Below are positions 10,947-60,075 of a stretch of DNA of 64,000 bases, piece after piece; position 1 is the first letter of the stretch, and each line of letters opens with the position of its first letter. The DNA is from Myxococcaceae bacterium (GTDB lineage Bacteria > Myxococcota_A > UBA9160). The stretch covers positions 1 to 64,000 of the forward strand of contig CAJPFO010000107.1 of NCBI GenBank assembly GCA_905339255.1, written 5' to 3'. A program made the position numbers and the translations under genes. The notes below the pieces were generated by a model. The model was not told where the DNA came from, did no database searches, and worked only from the letters and a program-made list of their open reading frames with translations.

Positions 10947-12155
10947 ATGCCGATGGACCTGAACGAGATCCTGAAGGTCGCGATCAAGGGCGGCGCCTCG
11001 GACATCCACTTGAAATCCGGGCTTCCCCCGATGTTCCGCGTCGACGGAGCCCTCGTCCCGCTCAAGAATGCCGACCGCCTGGTTCCCGAGGATCTCCAGC
11101 GCATGACGATCGGGATCATGAACCCGGTCCAGCGAGAGCGGTTCGAGAAGGCGCGCGAGTGCGATCTCGCCTACGGAATCCCGGGCCTCGGCCGCTTCCG
11201 GGTGAACGTCTTCCAGCAGCGCGGAACCGTGGCCGCGGTCTTCCGCGTGATCCCGTTCGGCGTCAAGAGCATCGAGCAGCTCGTTCTCCCCAAGGTGATC
11301 GAGTCGATCTCGATGGAGCAGCGCGGGCTCGTGCTCGTCACGGGAACGACGGGCTCTGGAAAGTCGACCACGCTCGCCGCGATGATCGACCACATCAACT
11401 CGCATCGGACCTGTCACATCGTGACGATCGAGGACCCGATCGAGTTCCTGATCCGGGATCGCCGCTCGATCGTGAACCAGCGCGAGATCGGCGTCGACAG
11501 CCAGAGCTTCGCCGCGGCGCTCCGCGCGGCGCTCCGGCAGGATCCCGACGTGATCCTGGTCGGTGAGATGCGGGACTTCGAGACCATCGAGACGGCGATC
11601 ACGGCGGCCGAGACCGGCCACCTCGTGATGAGCACGCTCCACACGCTCGACGCGACGGAGACGATCAACCGGATCATCTCGGTGTTTCCGCCCTACCAGC
11701 AGAAGCAGGTGCGCCTGCAGCTCGGTTCGATCCTGAAGGCCGTGATCTCGCAGCGTCTGGTTCCGCGCGCCGACGGAAAGGGTCGTGTTCCCGCGCTCGA
11801 AGTGCTCGTCTCGACCGCGCGGGTTCGCGAGTGCATCGCCGACAAGGACCGGACGAAAGAGCTGCACGACGCGATCTCGCGTGGCTTCTCGACCTACGGA
11901 ATGCAGACCTTCGATCAGTCGCTCATGCACCTCGTGAAGACCGGGCTCGTGACCTACGACGAGGCGCTCCGCCACGTCTCGAACGCCGACGATTTCGCGC
12001 TGCGGTTCCGCGGAATCGCTTCGACCTCGGATGGCACCTGGGACGACTTCGAGAAGGACGGCGACGAGAAGCCCGAGACGCCTCCCGTCGTCGAGAAGAA
12101 GGCCGCCCCTTCGCGCGCGCCCGAAGAGGACGACCTCCAGATCGAACGCTTCTAG
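10947..12155 (+). CDS. pilT: PilT-type twitching motility retraction ATPase
   Basis: Hexameric ATPase that depolymerises type IV pili. The N-terminal PAS-like half starts MPMDLNEILKVAIKGGASD and is followed by the RecA-like motor with Walker A GTTGSGKST (Lys139). The Asp box and Walker B are in DPDVILVGEMRD, and the His box in TGHLVMSTLHT. The AIRNLIRE-like region found in classical PilT is not obvious. At 402 residues it carries about 50 more than usual: an acidic/lysine-rich tail from roughly residue 352 (GTWDDFEKDGDEKPETPP to the end). The first ATG of MPMDLNE is preceded by a GAGAGG ribosome site. No other pilus genes adjoin; the assembly ATPase is at 55318. Confidence 0.9.
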   Translation: MPMDLNEILKVAIKGGASDIHLKSGLPPMFRVDGALVPLKNADRLVPEDLQRMTIGIMNPVQRERFEKARECDLAYGIPGLGRFRVNVFQQRGTVAAVFRVIPFGVKSIEQLVLPKVIESISMEQRGLVLVTGTTGSGKSTTLAAMIDHINSHRTCHIVTIEDPIEFLIRDRRSIVNQREIGVDSQSFAAALRAALRQDPDVILVGEMRDFETIETAITAAETGHLVMSTLHTLDATETINRIISVFPPYQQKQVRLQLGSILKAVISQRLVPRADGKGRVPALEVLVSTARVRECIADKDRTKELHDAISRGFSTYGMQTFDQSLMHLVKTGLVTYDEALRHVSNADDFALRFRGIASTSDGTWDDFEKDGDEKPETPPVVEKKAAPSRAPEEDDLQIERF

Positions 12156-53707: not shown

Positions 53708-55201
53708 ATGTCACTCGAGAGTGTGAGCGCGTTCGACCCTCTTCTGATGGACCCGACACCGCCCCGTAGCGGGCGGCGACGCTCGGCAGGCGCCTTCGGG
53801 AGAGGACTCGGCCGGAGGCTCCTCGCGTTCGTGGGCCGTCACGAAGGGCACGCGTTCGTCGCGAAGCTCTGCAGCGCGAGAGGAGTGTCCGGCGTCGTCG
53901 AGGGCCTGCGCGGAGTGCTCGGAGACGGCTTCGGGACCCTGGTGTCGGGTGAGGATCGTGTGGCGAAACCCGAAGCGTTCCTGCTCTGGATCCATCTCCC
54001 GGGCGATCTCGCTCGCGCGGCCCGAGTCGACGAACCGTCCCCGGTCCTCGCAAGGCTCGTCCGCGAAGGCCGCACGAGCATCGTTCCCGTCCACGTCGAG
54101 CGCATCGCGAAAAGACGCCTTCGTGCCACCCTCGGCGCGCCGATCCCGGGTTCTCGTCTTTCGAAGATCTCCACCGCTCGCGAACTGTTCCGCTTCCTCG
54201 GCCAAAGATGCGCCGCCCTCGAGCATCGGAGCCGCACGCGGGCGGCTCCTGCAGGAGCGCTCGTGGGCGCGGCCCCCGTCGCGGACGCGATCTCCACGGA
54301 CCTCGTCGAGCGGGAGATCCGCGCGCTCCCGCGCGACCAGCAGCTCGTCGAGAGCGGTCGCTTCGTCGTCGTCCAGGCGCACGAGCACCAGATTCCCGCC
54401 TGCGTTCGCGAGGTCGGAAGGCTCCGCGAGATCACCTTCCGGGCCGCGGGCGAGGGGACGGGCCGCTCGCTCGACCTCGACGCTTGCGATCGGAGCTACC
54501 GCCATCTGCTGCTCTTCGATCGCGAGGCGAGCGTGATCGCGGGGGCCTACCGCTTCGCTCCGACCGATGAGATCGTCCCCGTCTTCGGAGTCGAGGGCCT
54601 CTACACGAGCACGCTCTTCCGCATCGATCCACGGCTCTTCGAAGCGCTCGGTCCGAGCCTCGAACTCGGTCGCTCCTTCGTGCGGCTCGAGTATCAGCGC
54701 GGCTACGCGCCCCTGCTCCTGCTCTGGAGGGGGCTCTCCGCGTTCGTCGCGGCAAATCCTCGCTACCGGATCCTCTTCGGCGCCGTGAGCGTGTCCGCGA
54801 CCTACGCGGCCTTTTCCCGGGAGCTCCTCGCGACGGTGCTCGGTCGCCCGCCTGCGCTGCATCCGCTGGCGTCGTTCGTTGAACCCCGCAATCCGCTGCG
54901 ACCTCGTCGCGGGGTGCGGAGCGCACTCGATCGCTTCGGCGCCTCGATCGAAGATGCAAGCGATCTCGCGGCGATCGTCTCCGACGTCGAAGCCGATGCC
55001 AAGGGGCTTCCGGTCCTGCTGCGCGAGTACCTGAAACTCGGCGGTCGCCTCCTCGGATGGAGCGTCGATCGAACGTTCGCCTCGGCGCTCGACGGGTTGA
55101 TCGCCGTCGATCTCCCGCACGCCGACCCGCGACTGCTCGGCCTCTACATGGGGCGAGAGGCGGCCGAGGCCTACTGCCACCATCACGGCGTCGCGGGCTG
55201 A
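53708..55201 (+). CDS. GNAT-type N-acyltransferase fused to a truncated PlsC domain (ornithine-lipid enzyme-like)
   Basis: 497 residues. Residues 60-185 resemble only the second half of a PlsC acyltransferase (GKP-like SGEDRVAKPEAFLLWIHLPGDL, SIVPVHVERIAKRRLRATLG, ARELFRFLGQRC); the HX4D catalytic motif is missing. Residues 230-400 resemble the OlsB/hemolysin-type N-acyltransferase fold (VGRLREITFRAAGEGTG, CDRSYRHLLLFDREASVIAGAYRF, LELGRSFVRLEYQRGYAPLL). In related full-length proteins these two halves make ornithine or similar amino-acid lipids. The separate PlsC encoded divergently at 52676 could supply the missing O-acylation. ATG at 53708 after a GGGGGATG stretch. Confidence 0.8.
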   Translation: MSLESVSAFDPLLMDPTPPRSGRRRSAGAFGRGLGRRLLAFVGRHEGHAFVAKLCSARGVSGVVEGLRGVLGDGFGTLVSGEDRVAKPEAFLLWIHLPGDLARAARVDEPSPVLARLVREGRTSIVPVHVERIAKRRLRATLGAPIPGSRLSKISTARELFRFLGQRCAALEHRSRTRAAPAGALVGAAPVADAISTDLVEREIRALPRDQQLVESGRFVVVQAHEHQIPACVREVGRLREITFRAAGEGTGRSLDLDACDRSYRHLLLFDREASVIAGAYRFAPTDEIVPVFGVEGLYTSTLFRIDPRLFEALGPSLELGRSFVRLEYQRGYAPLLLLWRGLSAFVAANPRYRILFGAVSVSATYAAFSRELLATVLGRPPALHPLASFVEPRNPLRPRRGVRSALDRFGASIEDASDLAAIVSDVEADAKGLPVLLREYLKLGGRLLGWSVDRTFASALDGLIAVDLPHADPRLLGLYMGREAAEAYCHHHGVAG

Positions 55202-55317: not shown

Positions 55318-57597
55318 ATGAGCGGGGAAGAAGCCGAACCGGCCCCGGGGACGAGGGCGAGGGTCCGCTTTCTCGACGGCGTCGAGCGCGACGGTTGGAT
55401 CCGCGGCTTCTCGCCGACGAACGAGACGATCGATCTGACCGAGGCCCCCGGCCTTCCCCCGACGCCCTTCGACGTCGCAACGATCGCGTTCGTGGCCTTC
55501 GAGCCCGAGGACATCGCCGGAGCGCCCTCCGAAGCGGACGCCAGTCCGGCGGTGCGGGTGCATCTTCCGGGCGGGGCGAGCCTCGCCGTTGCGCCGCTCG
55601 AGGCGACCGGATCGCCGAACGGCTTCTGGGGTCGCCCCCTCACGATCTCGGGATTTCTCCGGGTCTACGTTTTCGGACATGCGGTGCACCTGCTCGAGGT
55701 GGACGAGTCGATCGGGGTGCTGCTGCTCCGAGAGGGGGTCGTGGCCCCCGAAGCGCTCGAGCGGGGCCTCGAGCGCCAGGCCGAGCTGCGGCGGCGCCGG
55801 ATCGGAGAGATCCTCCTCGAGCGAAAGGGCCTCGCGCCCGAAGCGCTCGATGCGAGCCTCGATGCTGCGCGTCGCCGTCGCCTCCGGATCGGCGACGTCC
55901 TGGTCGAGGCGGGCCTCGTTCGCGCGGAGGACATCGAGACCGCCCTCGCCGAGCAGCGCAAGCGTCGAGGCAAGCGCATCGGAGAAATCCTGGTCGAGAT
56001 GGGCGCCGTGACCGAACCGGCGCTCGCGACGACCCTCGCCGCCAAGTTCAATCTTCCGTTCGTCGACCTCGACGCGTGCCTGATCGATCCCGACGCGGTT
56101 CGGTCCGTCCCGCGGGCGGTGATCGAGAAGCACCAGATCCTGCCGATCGAGATCGAGGACGACCACGTGACCGTGGCGATCGCCGACCCACTCGACATGG
56201 AGCCGATCGATCTGCTCCGCTTCCAACGGCGCGGCCGGGTTCGCGAGGTGATCGCGACTCCGAGCCAGATCCGGCGCTACGTCGCGGGGCTGCTTTCGGA
56301 GGGAGAGTCGGGCGAAGCGGCTGGCGAGGTATCCACGCTTCTCCAGAACCTCGGCTCCGCGCTTCCGGAGGACGCATCGGAGCGCCACGACGACGCCGCA
56401 CTCGAGGTTCGAGAGTCCGACAACGCGATCATCCAGCTCGCCAACCAGATGATCCTCGAGGCGCTCCAGCGCGGCGCGTCGGATCTCCACATCGAACCCA
56501 ATGGAGCCCGCGACGGCGTCCGGATCCGGCTGCGGATCGACGGAGAGTGCGTTCAACTCCCCGACGTTCCCGCGAGCCATCGGGCGGCGCTCGTCTCGCG
56601 GATCAAGATCATGGCGAACCTCGACATCTCCGAGCGGCGGAAGCCGCAGGACGGAAAGATCCGGCTGCGGCTCAAGGATCGACCGGTCGAGCTTCGTGTG
56701 GCGACGGTGCCGACGGTGGGGGGCGAGGATGTCGTGATGCGCGTCCTCTCGGCGTCGAGGCCGATCCCTCTCGATGCGCTCGGCCTCGCCGATCGAAACC
56801 GCAGCGAGCTCGATCGGTTGGTGAGGCGGCCTTACGGCCTCATCCTCTGCGTCGGACCGACGGGGTCGGGCAAGACGACATCGTTGCATTCGCTCCTCGG
56901 GCACATCAACGGGCCTTCGCGAAAGATCTGGACGGCGGAGGATCCCGTCGAGATCACGCAGGCCGGGCTTCGCCAGGTCCAGGTGCAGCCGAGGATCGGA
57001 TTCGGCTTCGGAGAGGCGCTTCGCGCCTTCCTGCGAGCGGATCCGGACGTCATCATGGTGGGAGAGATGCGTGATCGCGAGACCGCGACGATGGCCGTCG
57101 AAGCGTCGCTCACCGGACACCTCGTGCTCTCGACGCTCCACACCAACAGCGCGGCCGAGACCGTGGTCCGTCTGATCGACATGGGTCTCGATCCATTCAG
57201 CTTCGGCGATGCGCTCCTCGGGGTTCTCGCGCAACGACTCGCGAGACGGCTTTGCGAGAGTTGTCGATCGCTCGAACCCGCGGACGAGCCGTCGCGCCAG
57301 GCCTTGCGCGATGCCCTCGGATCCGATCCCGCAGCGGAGCGCGTGGGGCGTCTGCTCTGGAAGGCCAACGGATGCAGCGCGTGTCGCGGCAGCGGATACC
57401 GCGGCCGGGTGGCGCTCCACGAACTCCTGGTCGTCGACGACGAGCTGCGGACGGCCACGCACGCCCGCGCCGATGCGGATCGGCTTCACGAGCTCGCCAC
57501 GGCGGGCGGGATGACGACGCTGCTGCAGGACGGCGCCCGCAAGTGCCTCGAGGGGGCCACGGACCTCGCGCACGTCCTCGCCGTCTGCTCGCGCTGA
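55318..57597 (+). CDS. PilB/GspE-type assembly ATPase with extended N-terminus
   Basis: 759 residues. Residues 10-140 are an extra beta-type region (RVRFLDGVERDGWIRGFSPT through TPFDVATIAFVAFEPED) that resembles the DUF6982-like domain found in some pilus and PilZ proteins. Two MshEN/GspE N-terminal segments follow (about 140-235 and 235-330). The motor has a Walker A GPTGSGKTT (Lys519), Asp/His boxes (DPDVIMVGEMRDRET, TGHLVLSTLHTNSAAE) and a zinc-binding tetracysteine (CESC and CSAC). It powers pilus or type II secretion fibre assembly. Only a pilin and two unusual proteins follow; no PilC platform is nearby. ATG at 55318. Confidence 0.9.
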   Translation: MSGEEAEPAPGTRARVRFLDGVERDGWIRGFSPTNETIDLTEAPGLPPTPFDVATIAFVAFEPEDIAGAPSEADASPAVRVHLPGGASLAVAPLEATGSPNGFWGRPLTISGFLRVYVFGHAVHLLEVDESIGVLLLREGVVAPEALERGLERQAELRRRRIGEILLERKGLAPEALDASLDAARRRRLRIGDVLVEAGLVRAEDIETALAEQRKRRGKRIGEILVEMGAVTEPALATTLAAKFNLPFVDLDACLIDPDAVRSVPRAVIEKHQILPIEIEDDHVTVAIADPLDMEPIDLLRFQRRGRVREVIATPSQIRRYVAGLLSEGESGEAAGEVSTLLQNLGSALPEDASERHDDAALEVRESDNAIIQLANQMILEALQRGASDLHIEPNGARDGVRIRLRIDGECVQLPDVPASHRAALVSRIKIMANLDISERRKPQDGKIRLRLKDRPVELRVATVPTVGGEDVVMRVLSASRPIPLDALGLADRNRSELDRLVRRPYGLILCVGPTGSGKTTSLHSLLGHINGPSRKIWTAEDPVEITQAGLRQVQVQPRIGFGFGEALRAFLRADPDVIMVGEMRDRETATMAVEASLTGHLVLSTLHTNSAAETVVRLIDMGLDPFSFGDALLGVLAQRLARRLCESCRSLEPADEPSRQALRDALGSDPAAERVGRLLWKANGCSACRGSGYRGRVALHELLVVDDELRTATHARADADRLHELATAGGMTTLLQDGARKCLEGATDLAHVLAVCSR

Positions 57598-57657
57598 TTC
57601 AAGGCTCGTCGCCGGAGGGCCGATGAGCGAGCGGGCCCTCTTGGGCCGGAGGGAGCG

Positions 57658-58092
57658 ATGCGTGCACGAACCACCTCGCGCAGGCTTCGGCGACACGGCG
57701 GCTTCTCGATCATCGAACTCTTCGTCGCGCTCTCGATCGTCGCGATCCTCGCCGCGGCGGGGCTCGCGATGTTCCGGTCGCAGTCGCTCAAGGCTCGGCG
57801 CGCCGAGGCCGTGATGGGCCTCAAGGCGATCCATCGGGCGCAGCGATCCTACTTCGCACAGAACAACGGCTTCGGAGACACCTTCGACGAGCTCGGGCTT
57901 TCGCTCGACGGAGCGACCCGGGTCGACGCGCAGACGCTTCGAGGCGAGACGTACACCTTCACGATGCGGGCGCTTCCGCTCGGCGGAAATGCCCGCGGCA
58001 ACTTCCAGGCGATCGCGACCGGCGACCTCGATCCCGGAGACGGCGTGCTCGACGTGCTGATGATCGAAAACGGCTTGACGGTTTCGCCGTAG
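57658..58092 (+). CDS. Type IV pilin-like protein
   Basis: 144 residues. The leader MRARTTSRRLRRHGG ends in the prepilin peptidase site Gly15|Phe16, followed by FSIIELFVALSIVAILAA with the conserved Glu5 of the mature form and a hydrophobic alpha-1 helix. The globular part (about 70-144) has no cysteine pair, unlike many major pilins, and includes a SYFAQNNGFGDTFDELG stretch of the kind seen in type IV pilins. ATG at 57658 follows GGAGGGAGCG. It lies 60 bases after the ATPase gene. Confidence 0.9.
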   Translation: MRARTTSRRLRRHGGFSIIELFVALSIVAILAAAGLAMFRSQSLKARRAEAVMGLKAIHRAQRSYFAQNNGFGDTFDELGLSLDGATRVDAQTLRGETYTFTMRALPLGGNARGNFQAIATGDLDPGDGVLDVLMIENGLTVSP

Positions 58093-58118
58093 GGCGATCC
58101 CCTGGAGAAGGAGAGCAG

Positions 58119-58706
58119 ATGAGTCGGATCGAATCGCGGTCTGGGAGGCTCCTGGTCGCGGCGTTCACGCTCGCCGGCCTCGCCGCACCCGCCATGGCCG
58201 ACGAGAAGGTCGACGCGGACCAGATCGTGATCCTTTCGGACGACATCTCGAACACGATGCGAAGCGTCGACCGCTCGGGAGCCGACTCCGGTTCCGGAAG
58301 TGGTGCGGACTCGGGCTCCGGTAGCGGCGCGCCGTCCGGCGCGGGCGGCCCGGGAGCGGGAGCGGGATCCGGAAGCTCGAACGACGACGCGGCAGCGGCA
58401 GCAGCCGCCGCCGCGAAGGCTGCGGAAGCGGCAAAGGCTGCAGAGGCAGCGAAGGCTGCGGACGCGAAGAAGGCGGCCGAGGCGGCGAAGAAGGCCGAAG
58501 CCGCCAAGGCGGCGGAGGCCAAGAAGGCGGCCGCTGCCGCGAAGAAGGCGGAGGCCGCGAAGGCTGCGCAAGCGAAGAAGGCGGCCGAGGCGGCGAAGAA
58601 GGCCGCGGCCGCGAAGGCCGCCGCAGCGAGTGCGGCTTCGAAAGGCGCGAGCTCGCAGCCCCCGGCTTCGCCGGCGGCCGCGTCGAGCAGCGCGAAGGGC
58701 CGTTGA
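58119..58706 (+). CDS. Secreted Ala/Lys-repeat protein
   Basis: 195 residues. A signal peptide ends at APAMA; a short conserved-looking part (DEKVDADQIVILSDDISNTM) follows. Next comes a Gly/Ser-rich linker with a duplicated GADSGSGSG unit (about residues 54-90) and a long Ala-Lys-Glu repeat (about 92-180) built from AKAAEA and KKAAEAAKKAE units. The repeat would form a long straight helix like that of TolA or histone H1-like proteins. No globular domain is present. It lies 26 bases after the pilin and 22 bases before the next gene. Its role is unknown; a periplasmic spacer or wall-binding filament is conceivable. Confidence 0.8.
   Translation: MSRIESRSGRLLVAAFTLAGLAAPAMADEKVDADQIVILSDDISNTMRSVDRSGADSGSGSGADSGSGSGAPSGAGGPGAGAGSGSSNDDAAAAAAAAAKAAEAAKAAEAAKAADAKKAAEAAKKAEAAKAAEAKKAAAAAKKAEAAKAAQAKKAAEAAKKAAAAKAAAASAASKGASSQPPASPAAASSSAKGR
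58275..58650 (+). repeat. GADSGSGSG duplication and Ala/Lys tandem repeat DNA
   Basis: The Gly/Ser block is an imperfect direct repeat (GCCGACTCCGG and GCGGACTCGGG units). It is followed by about 260 bases built from GCGAAGAAGGCGGCCGAGGC-like units, all in frame with the secreted Ala/Lys protein. Confidence 0.75.
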
Positions 58707-58728
58707 GCATCGACGGAGAGGTCGGTTC

Positions 58729-60075
58729 GTGACGCAAGCCCGGGAGGTCGGGACACGGAGTATCGCGACGGCGGATGCCGAAGAGCGCCTGCGCCGGCTC
58801 GAGGCCCTCTCGCGTCTGCTCGCGAACGCGAAGCCATCGGGCGCTCCCGGATCTCTCGCCGAGAAGCTCGCGGGCCTCCGTCGCGCTCTCGAGAGCCTCG
58901 CCTCGCGCCGCCGCGCACTCGAGGCCCGACTCTTCGACGCTGCGACGGCCGCGTCGGAGCGAGCGGCCATCGAAAGCGAGCTCGAACGCGTCGACGCCGC
59001 CCTCGCGATGCACGCCGGAACGCTCCGGTCGGCGTTCGACGACGTTCCGCTCGCAGGACTTCGCCAGACGATCAGCGCCCGCGGAAGCGATGGGCGTGAC
59101 GAGGCGGCCGTATTGCTCGATCTCCTCCTCGAAGACGAGGACTTCCTCGCCCGACGCATGGAGCTCTTCGATCTCCTCGTGACGCTGCTCTCGACGGAGG
59201 AGACCTCGAACCGCAGACGGATCGCTCGGGACCCCGTCTCGCTCACGCCCCGCCTCGCGGCCTCGTGCGAGAGGGCCGCCCGCACCGGGGCCGAGGACTC
59301 CGCGTCGATCGAGCAGGAGTTCTTGCGGGCGGCCGAGCGCTGCGAGTCCGGCGAGATCGCCGACCTCGTCTCCGAGATGCGCGCTCGCAAGGCGACGCTC
59401 GGCGCCGTGCTGCTCGTGCCCGACGTGTTGCGCGCGGCCGTCTTCTACAACGCGAGCGTCTGGAGCGTTCTCCGCTCGCACCTCGGCCACGAACGTGCGG
59501 CTCCGTCCGCCATGGCGACCGCGGTCGGCTCGTCTCGCGTCGAAGCGCCGGAGGTATCGGAGGTCGAGCCGATCTGCGAGCAACCCGAAGCGAACCCCGA
59601 GGCCGGCTCGACCGAGGCGCCCGTCGAAGAGCCGCCTCCCGAATCGGCGGTGCACTGGGCCGTCGAAGGTCTACCAGAAGCGGTGCGGTCGCCGGCCGCC
59701 GAACGCGCTCCTCGAGGGTCCGGTCGGCGCATCGTCGCGGGAATCTGCGCAGCCGTCGGCGTCGCTGCGGTGGTCGCCTGGTTCGCTCTCGACGCGCCCC
59801 CGCACGCCGCATGGCCGCTCTCCGCTGGCGAACTCCGGGAGGTCTCGCCGATCCTTCGCACGGGGTATCGAGATCGATCGCAGCGGGGACGCGTGTTCAT
59901 CGGAACGGTCGGGCCGGAATGGGAGCGCCTTCCCGGCCCGCAACGCCGTGAGAGCGTCGATCGCCTCGTCGGGCGGCTCTCGCGATCGGGGATCCGGGAG
60001 GTGCTGCTCTACGACCCGAAGCAGCGGCTCGTCGTGCACCACGCCGAGGGGCTCCCGCGGCGACTCGTTCTCTAG
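58729..60075 (+). CDS. Coiled-coil membrane protein of the pilus-like operon, unknown function
   Basis: 448 residues. Residues 15-110 are strongly helical and heptad-like (AEERLRRLEALSRLLAN, LESLASRRRALEARLFDA). A helical bundle runs to about 265, then a Pro/Glu linker (about 275-330), one membrane span (about 342-360, IVAGICAAVGVAAVVAWFAL), and a periplasmic domain of about 85 residues with GRVFIGTVGPEWERLPGP and GIREVLLYDPKQRLVV. There is no signal peptide, so the coiled coil is cytoplasmic and could contact the ATPase encoded upstream. GTG at 58729 follows GGAGAGGTCG. Its stop overlaps the convergent gene by four bases. Confidence 0.8.
   Translation: MTQAREVGTRSIATADAEERLRRLEALSRLLANAKPSGAPGSLAEKLAGLRRALESLASRRRALEARLFDAATAASERAAIESELERVDAALAMHAGTLRSAFDDVPLAGLRQTISARGSDGRDEAAVLLDLLLEDEDFLARRMELFDLLVTLLSTEETSNRRRIARDPVSLTPRLAASCERAARTGAEDSASIEQEFLRAAERCESGEIADLVSEMRARKATLGAVLLVPDVLRAAVFYNASVWSVLRSHLGHERAAPSAMATAVGSSRVEAPEVSEVEPICEQPEANPEAGSTEAPVEEPPPESAVHWAVEGLPEAVRSPAAERAPRGSGRRIVAGICAAVGVAAVVAWFALDAPPHAAWPLSAGELREVSPILRTGYRDRSQRGRVFIGTVGPEWERLPGPQRRESVDRLVGRLSRSGIREVLLYDPKQRLVVHHAEGLPRRLVL

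Follow-up and report, generated by a model that had tools for sequence, protein, structure and literature searches.

The locus at 55318-60075 of the window, a 64,000-nucleotide stretch from the genome of a Myxococcaceae bacterium (contig C107; assembly of 4.28 Mb in 335 contigs, 90% complete), carries a conserved three-gene cassette behind an unusual secretion-type ATPase gene. Our comparison supports a pilin, a secreted "SDD" protein and a membrane protein, P4, as a real conserved cassette that recurs in many Myxococcota. We tentatively favour, at slightly less than an even chance, a reading in which the locus is two separable things: an orphan ATPase, and a specialised pilin module that has its own membrane adaptor or receptor and uses the housekeeping platform. 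The base of comparison was draft assemblies, sampled genomes and one congener (G001), and start codons in the relatives are approximate because they come from a home-made gene caller.

Layout and genome setting

A sequence-only reading of this DNA had described closely spaced genes for an ATPase, a pilin, an Ala/Lys-repeat protein and a coiled-coil protein. All four ORFs were confirmed, with successive gaps of 60, 26 and 22 nt, and a sequence scan found no terminator-like sites in these gaps.

55318-57597, + strand: PilB/GspE-type ATPase, confirmed ORF of 759 aa (Pfam T2SSE and MshEN)
55318-55719, + strand: N-terminal beta domain of the ATPase, about residues 1-134, conserved in the subfamily
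55885-56307, + strand: c-di-GMP-motif (MshEN-type) region of the ATPase, about residues 190-330 (NF053729, two stretches)
57658-58092, + strand: short ("type A") type IV pilin, confirmed ORF of 144 aa (N_methyl above cut-off)
58119-58706, + strand: secreted SDD protein with Ala/Lys repeat, confirmed ORF of 195 aa
58410-58629, + strand: tandem repeat coding for the Ala/Lys tail, 36/54-bp units (Tandem Repeats Finder)
58729-60075, + strand: P4, coiled-coil single-span protein, confirmed ORF of 448 aa with a GTG start
59800-60072, + strand: periplasmic domain of P4, residues 358-448 (AF2 pLDDT 89.6, pTM 0.80)

A GNAT-type acetyltransferase gene (53708-55201, + strand; Pfam Acetyltransf_5, E=1e-21) lies 116 nt 5' of the ATPase gene, and the next gene 3' of P4 (60072-60887) is on the opposite strand. 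Elsewhere in the window, at 11.0-12.2 kb on the + strand, there is a PilT-like ATPase gene, whose best match to the ATPase of the locus is at 11298-11762.

The locus was said to have no platform gene, and this was borne out. The T2SSF platform proteins found in the genome are PilC (contig C163) and GspF (contig C68), both away from the locus, and a third T2SSF protein was not found in the genome; the locus is thus not a complete type IV pilus or type II secretion cluster with a linked platform gene. Besides PilC, the genome encodes PilB, PilT and a GspE-clade protein. On another of its contigs (C108, L206:8049-12847), two pilin genes, an ABC-transporter pair and a prepilin-peptidase-like gene stand in series, a row that, judged by eye, resembles the pilD-I-H-G-A part of the Myxococcus pil cluster.

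An orphan ATPase subfamily

The ATPase belongs to the type II/IV secretion ATPase superfamily (Pfam T2SSE E=4e-120, 401 bits; MshEN E=5e-24; Walker A GPTGSGKT), and it scores below the cut-offs of all three models for named extension ATPases that we used: PilB (TIGR02538, 520.7 bits against 675.65, with the genome's own PilB at 823.9), GspE (TIGR02533, 490.8 bits against 630.25) and TfpB (NF053534, 419.6 bits against 850). In a tree it clusters only with the congener's protein, outside the PilB clade and the GspE clade of the order, its exact position being unsure because of a long branch. A phylum-wide search added 16 genomes that have the subfamily, none of them in the order, mostly at 45-53% identity over near the full length of the ATPase. 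Judged from these sequences, the ATPase represents a third GspE/PilB subfamily, patchily distributed in Myxococcota.

The non-standard N-terminal beta domain proposed earlier turned out to be real: it has no Pfam match, and the alignment shows it to be kept across the subfamily. Its similarity to LSM/Sm proteins was weak (E 0.15 and 0.31) and is a hint only. The proposed doubling of the N-domains held in part, since the NCBIfam c-di-GMP motif NF053729 scores 82.7 bits against a cut-off of 38 in two stretches, whereas Pfam counts a single MshEN (residues 244-330). In its MshEN domain, c-di-GMP motifs above cut-off and T2SSE motor the protein is like MshE and MshEN-bearing PilB (PMC5013675), but it differs from them in the added beta domain, in forming a clade of its own and in lying outside pilus clusters in relatives. 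It also recalls TfpB, the second extension ATPase beside PilB in Acinetobacter baylyi, in being an extension-type ATPase distinct from PilB in a PilB-bearing cell (PMC8213720, PMC11656802), but it falls far below the TfpB model cut-off and has the extra beta domain.

In the congener G001, the ATPase gene is solitary and P4 is absent. Near 14 further, more distant copies of the gene, searches for P4-family and SDD proteins came back empty, and the called genes round these copies included no pilin (two of the 14 stretches, L247 and L251, have almost no gene calls, and there only the profile searches count). Since the gene stands alone in G001 and the partners are missing near the 14 copies, this is a subfamily of solitary genes, whose adjacency to a pilin is so far unique to the window genome.

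The conserved pilin cassette

We counted 44 P4 loci (family E<1e-40), 40 of which could be assessed upstream, meaning that about 700 nt or more of upstream sequence was present or a pilin was already visible. A same-strand type IV pilin lies directly 5' of P4 in 28 of these 40 loci (27 by profile, plus L072, read by hand where the ORF had merged), and 12 have no upstream pilin. The SDD gene is missing from most pilin-P4 pairs of the order. The neighbourhoods searched, many of them 7-8 kb on each side and some shorter at contig ends, contained no such ATPase apart from that of the window, and linkage of the cassette to a standard pil cluster, which would have spoken against a separate gene set, was not observed among relatives. 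The last two genes are therefore kept beside the pilin but not beside the ATPase, and the description of their products as unlike any known pilus component stood.

The pilin passes both general pilin models (Pfam N_methyl, 22.1 bits against 21.2; TIGR02532, 20.9 against 16.3) and has the prepilin motif GG/FSIIE with Glu5, so by sequence it is a type IV pilin. A subtype alignment places it in the short type A subtype, with a TGDLDPGDGVLDVLMIEN segment in its C-terminal part. The subtype ends in a D.DP.D...D segment, and the equivalent region in the distant family described below matches FG-GAP (E=8e-5), hinting at a metal-binding loop. It is the one pilin-like ORF in the window, and Pfam detected no PilY1 family member among the scanned neighbours; the locus does not have the make-up of a minor pilin/PilY1 cluster.

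The SDD protein consists of a signal peptide, a strand-like EPVVISDDI (VDADQIVILSDDISN) motif and a variable polar tail, which is Ala/Lys-rich here and Asn/Gly/Asp-rich or Lys/Gly-rich in relatives. The pilin-P4 intervals of five genomes encode SDD sequences: G007 (...GDFEVDASRVIIISDDISNETTDV), G048 (...ALADYVVGAGEPVVISDDVFDRTTEV), G202 (...AQADRVVSANEPIVWFDDVRGTSVEL), G360 (...SAADREAGPGEVLLLSDEIFGNSVEV) and G349 (...HGDRVVNANEPVVIFDDIRKTVTTV); in G073, the SDD gene adjoins the same pilin subtype at a contig end. A profile built without the window protein recovered it at E=2.1e-9 among 384 ORFs (runner-up, 0.3), and none of 1000 shuffles of its mature N-terminus reached the real score. Matches of the repeat protein to Pfam Nop53 and to NCBIfam IgA-binding and EntC models were low-complexity artefacts.

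Within the class, seven genomes have the SDD gene next to this single short pilin subtype. Across the order, the full-length pilin subtype occurs in 5 of 80 genomes, and all five have an SDD gene (E<1e-10) as against 1 of the 75 others (Fisher p=2.5e-7, an optimistic value because the SDD family was first recognised next to such pilins). The search of the order also showed that in G014 the pilin subtype has no adjacent SDD gene, the SDD gene, absent from the profile, lying elsewhere; in G316 it likewise lies elsewhere in the genome.

Several observations concern SDD proteins at large. A stretch of about 40 aa, NNGHGNN.DGVDSSNPGQG.GGPNG..D.SC, is conserved in SDD tails (L157, L202-L204, L208-L213, L215, L216, L218, L226), and a literature search for its DGVDSSNPG motif gave no result. 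The stretch also turns up in other proteins: one is a putative lipoprotein (G327, L208), and two more (G095, G179) are long and Ser/Gly-rich, with a Flp/Tad-like pilin N-terminus and Ala/Lys-repeat ends. SDD genes away from a pilin were seen in G047 (L226:1593-1928, - strand) and G014 (L267:1355-1753, + strand), each followed 3' by a gene for a similar multi-pass membrane protein.

P4 gave no credible match in Pfam or NCBIfam. Of the order's 80 genomes, 33 encode a P4-family protein, as do 5 genomes that belong to another family of the class; two further ones in the phylum match it by the C-terminal part only. The single membrane span claimed for it was confirmed as one transmembrane segment at about residues 331-352, followed by a conserved domain of about 90 aa. 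P4 of the window is itself a shortened family member: relatives have about 590 aa, and the window and G009 copies are short by about 130 aa in the middle. Basic residues before the transmembrane segment suggest an orientation with the N-terminus inside and the C-terminus outside. A single-chain model of the window's periplasmic domain has the element order E-H-E-E-H-H-E-E, and that of a full-length relative has a helical cytoplasmic part (mean pLDDT 82.6, pTM 0.47). Fold searches against the PDB returned nothing below E=0.15 with the full-length model and nothing below E=0.09 with the periplasmic domain alone. PPR and RecA-fusion chains matched the domain through repeat-summed scores whose single stretches are insignificant, and these, like other marginal PDB sequence matches, were set aside as chance. 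Proteins with a P4-like C-terminal domain were also seen beside a convergent pilin gene in G303 (L155:7765-9734) and, as two proteins with no pilin directly 5', in G087 (L153, L154).

A distant version of the gene set was found in one genus of family f21, in another part of the phylum, where six genomes have related subtype pilins with the SDD-type tail motif nearby. In the three genomes inspected, a kinase-like membrane protein gene comes first, followed by the pilin and SDD genes. The membrane protein has a degenerate kinase-like cytoplasmic part (Pkinase E=0.0007, below cut-off; catalytic motifs apparently missing, by eye), a transmembrane segment and a P4-related C-terminal domain, the relationship of the periplasmic domains being modest (E 3e-5 to 3e-4 at Z=100000; hhalign probability 94%). 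The common theme thus appears to be a pilin, an SDD protein and a membrane protein with a related periplasmic domain and an exchangeable cytoplasmic part. In G230 (L202:5948-7651), the kinase-like protein and the pilin are in one frame with no intervening stop; in L204 and L203 they are separate, and the G230 case is a fusion or a sequence error.

Possible roles of the cassette

A shared periplasmic domain combined with an exchangeable cytoplasmic domain is a receptor or adaptor layout, and the main rival is a GspL-like stator. GspL of type II secretion has a cytoplasmic domain, a single span and a small periplasmic alpha/beta domain, and P4 has the same layout. As a dedicated stator of the GspL or PilM-PilN kind, P4 would hold an extension ATPase by its cytoplasmic part and organise the machine by its periplasmic domain, in a private module sharing the platform alone; the extension-type ATPase adjoining the cassette in the window fits this. 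We nevertheless consider it unlikely: P4 has neither a Pfam match nor a convincing fold match to a stator (the best folds, at E=0.15 and 0.09, are non-stator proteins), its cytoplasmic part is helical or kinase-like rather than actin-like as in GspL, and the other P4 loci searched had no ATPase nearby. Another reading, in which the four genes are one functional operon and the orphan ATPase was recruited at the genus level as the private motor of the cassette, strikes us as very improbable. The 60-nt gap, the common strand and the lack of terminator-like sites between the genes agree with such a unit, as the sequence-only reading had proposed, but a single draft genome shows it, the congener has a lone ATPase gene and no P4, neither partner family was found at the 14 other ATPase loci, and the other P4 loci searched do without the ATPase.

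A further possibility is that the ordinary type IVa pilus uses this protein as an accessory or minor pilin, with SDD and P4 tuning its stability or surface exposure and no separate fibre being made; in our view this is quite unlikely. The genome does have PilB, PilT and PilC, with longer pilins and a peptidase-like gene on contig C108, and Myxococcota commonly have minor-pilin clusters at a distance from the main pil cluster (PMC13190605). But the described clusters, which are part of Myxococcus type IVa pili, hold several minor pilins plus PilY1 (PMC13190605), and our locus has a single pilin with no PilY1-like neighbour by Pfam. The two arrangements do share a pilin with a secreted partner, a position off the main pil cluster and a shared machine (PMC13190605); the cassette differs in having one pilin, no PilY1, a short disordered secreted protein and a membrane protein of a new family.

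On the reading that we prefer, in which the pilin module is specialised and P4 serves as its membrane adaptor or receptor, the pilin would be processed by the housekeeping prepilin peptidase and assembled on the PilC platform. As PilC and GspF are the only platform proteins found, the pilin most likely uses one of the two. The earlier proposal of a specialised fibre borrowing housekeeping machinery is upheld as to the platform: its genes lie only elsewhere in the genome, so any fibre would have to borrow it. The SDD protein would be exported by Sec and dock by its strand-like motif, with either the pilin or the periplasmic domain as partner, leaving a disordered tail; the position of the motif directly after the signal peptide suggests strand addition, purely by analogy with what has been modelled between PilX and PilY1 (PMC13190605). 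P4 may be a transmembrane adaptor or receptor whose periplasmic side touches the pilin and the SDD protein and whose exchangeable domain, a helical bundle here and a degenerate kinase in the distant family, couples this contact to the cytoplasm. In the window genome, the fibre may be powered by the c-di-GMP-motif ATPase encoded next door. Fibre formation, contact among the three proteins and signalling by the adaptor are all inferred. A purely functional precedent for P4 is MasA of the Myxococcus xanthus MasABK complex: in two-hybrid tests, its periplasmic domain, about 100 aa long, bound PilA (PMC3546991). MasABK has two membrane spans and another domain order.

Two protein families beyond Pfam and NCBIfam belong to this recurrent set of genes around a pilin, and one of them, P4, is present in roughly 40% of the genomes sampled from one Myxococcota order. 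The locus also illustrates that gene adjacency may be misleading when it is seen in just one metagenome-assembled genome, as the ATPase that prompted this analysis belongs to a separate subfamily of solitary genes. The cassette offers a concrete way into the question of how several pilins may share a single housekeeping pilus platform. It is possible, if still on the doubtful side, that P4 and its distant relatives are undescribed pilin-coupled transmembrane receptors of Myxococcota, in which the periplasmic domain, for which no close relative of solved structure emerged, would read the state of the dedicated short pilin and the SDD protein and pass it to a helical scaffold or a pseudokinase; if P4 is such a receptor, it would give the state of a pilin a direct route into the cell interior.
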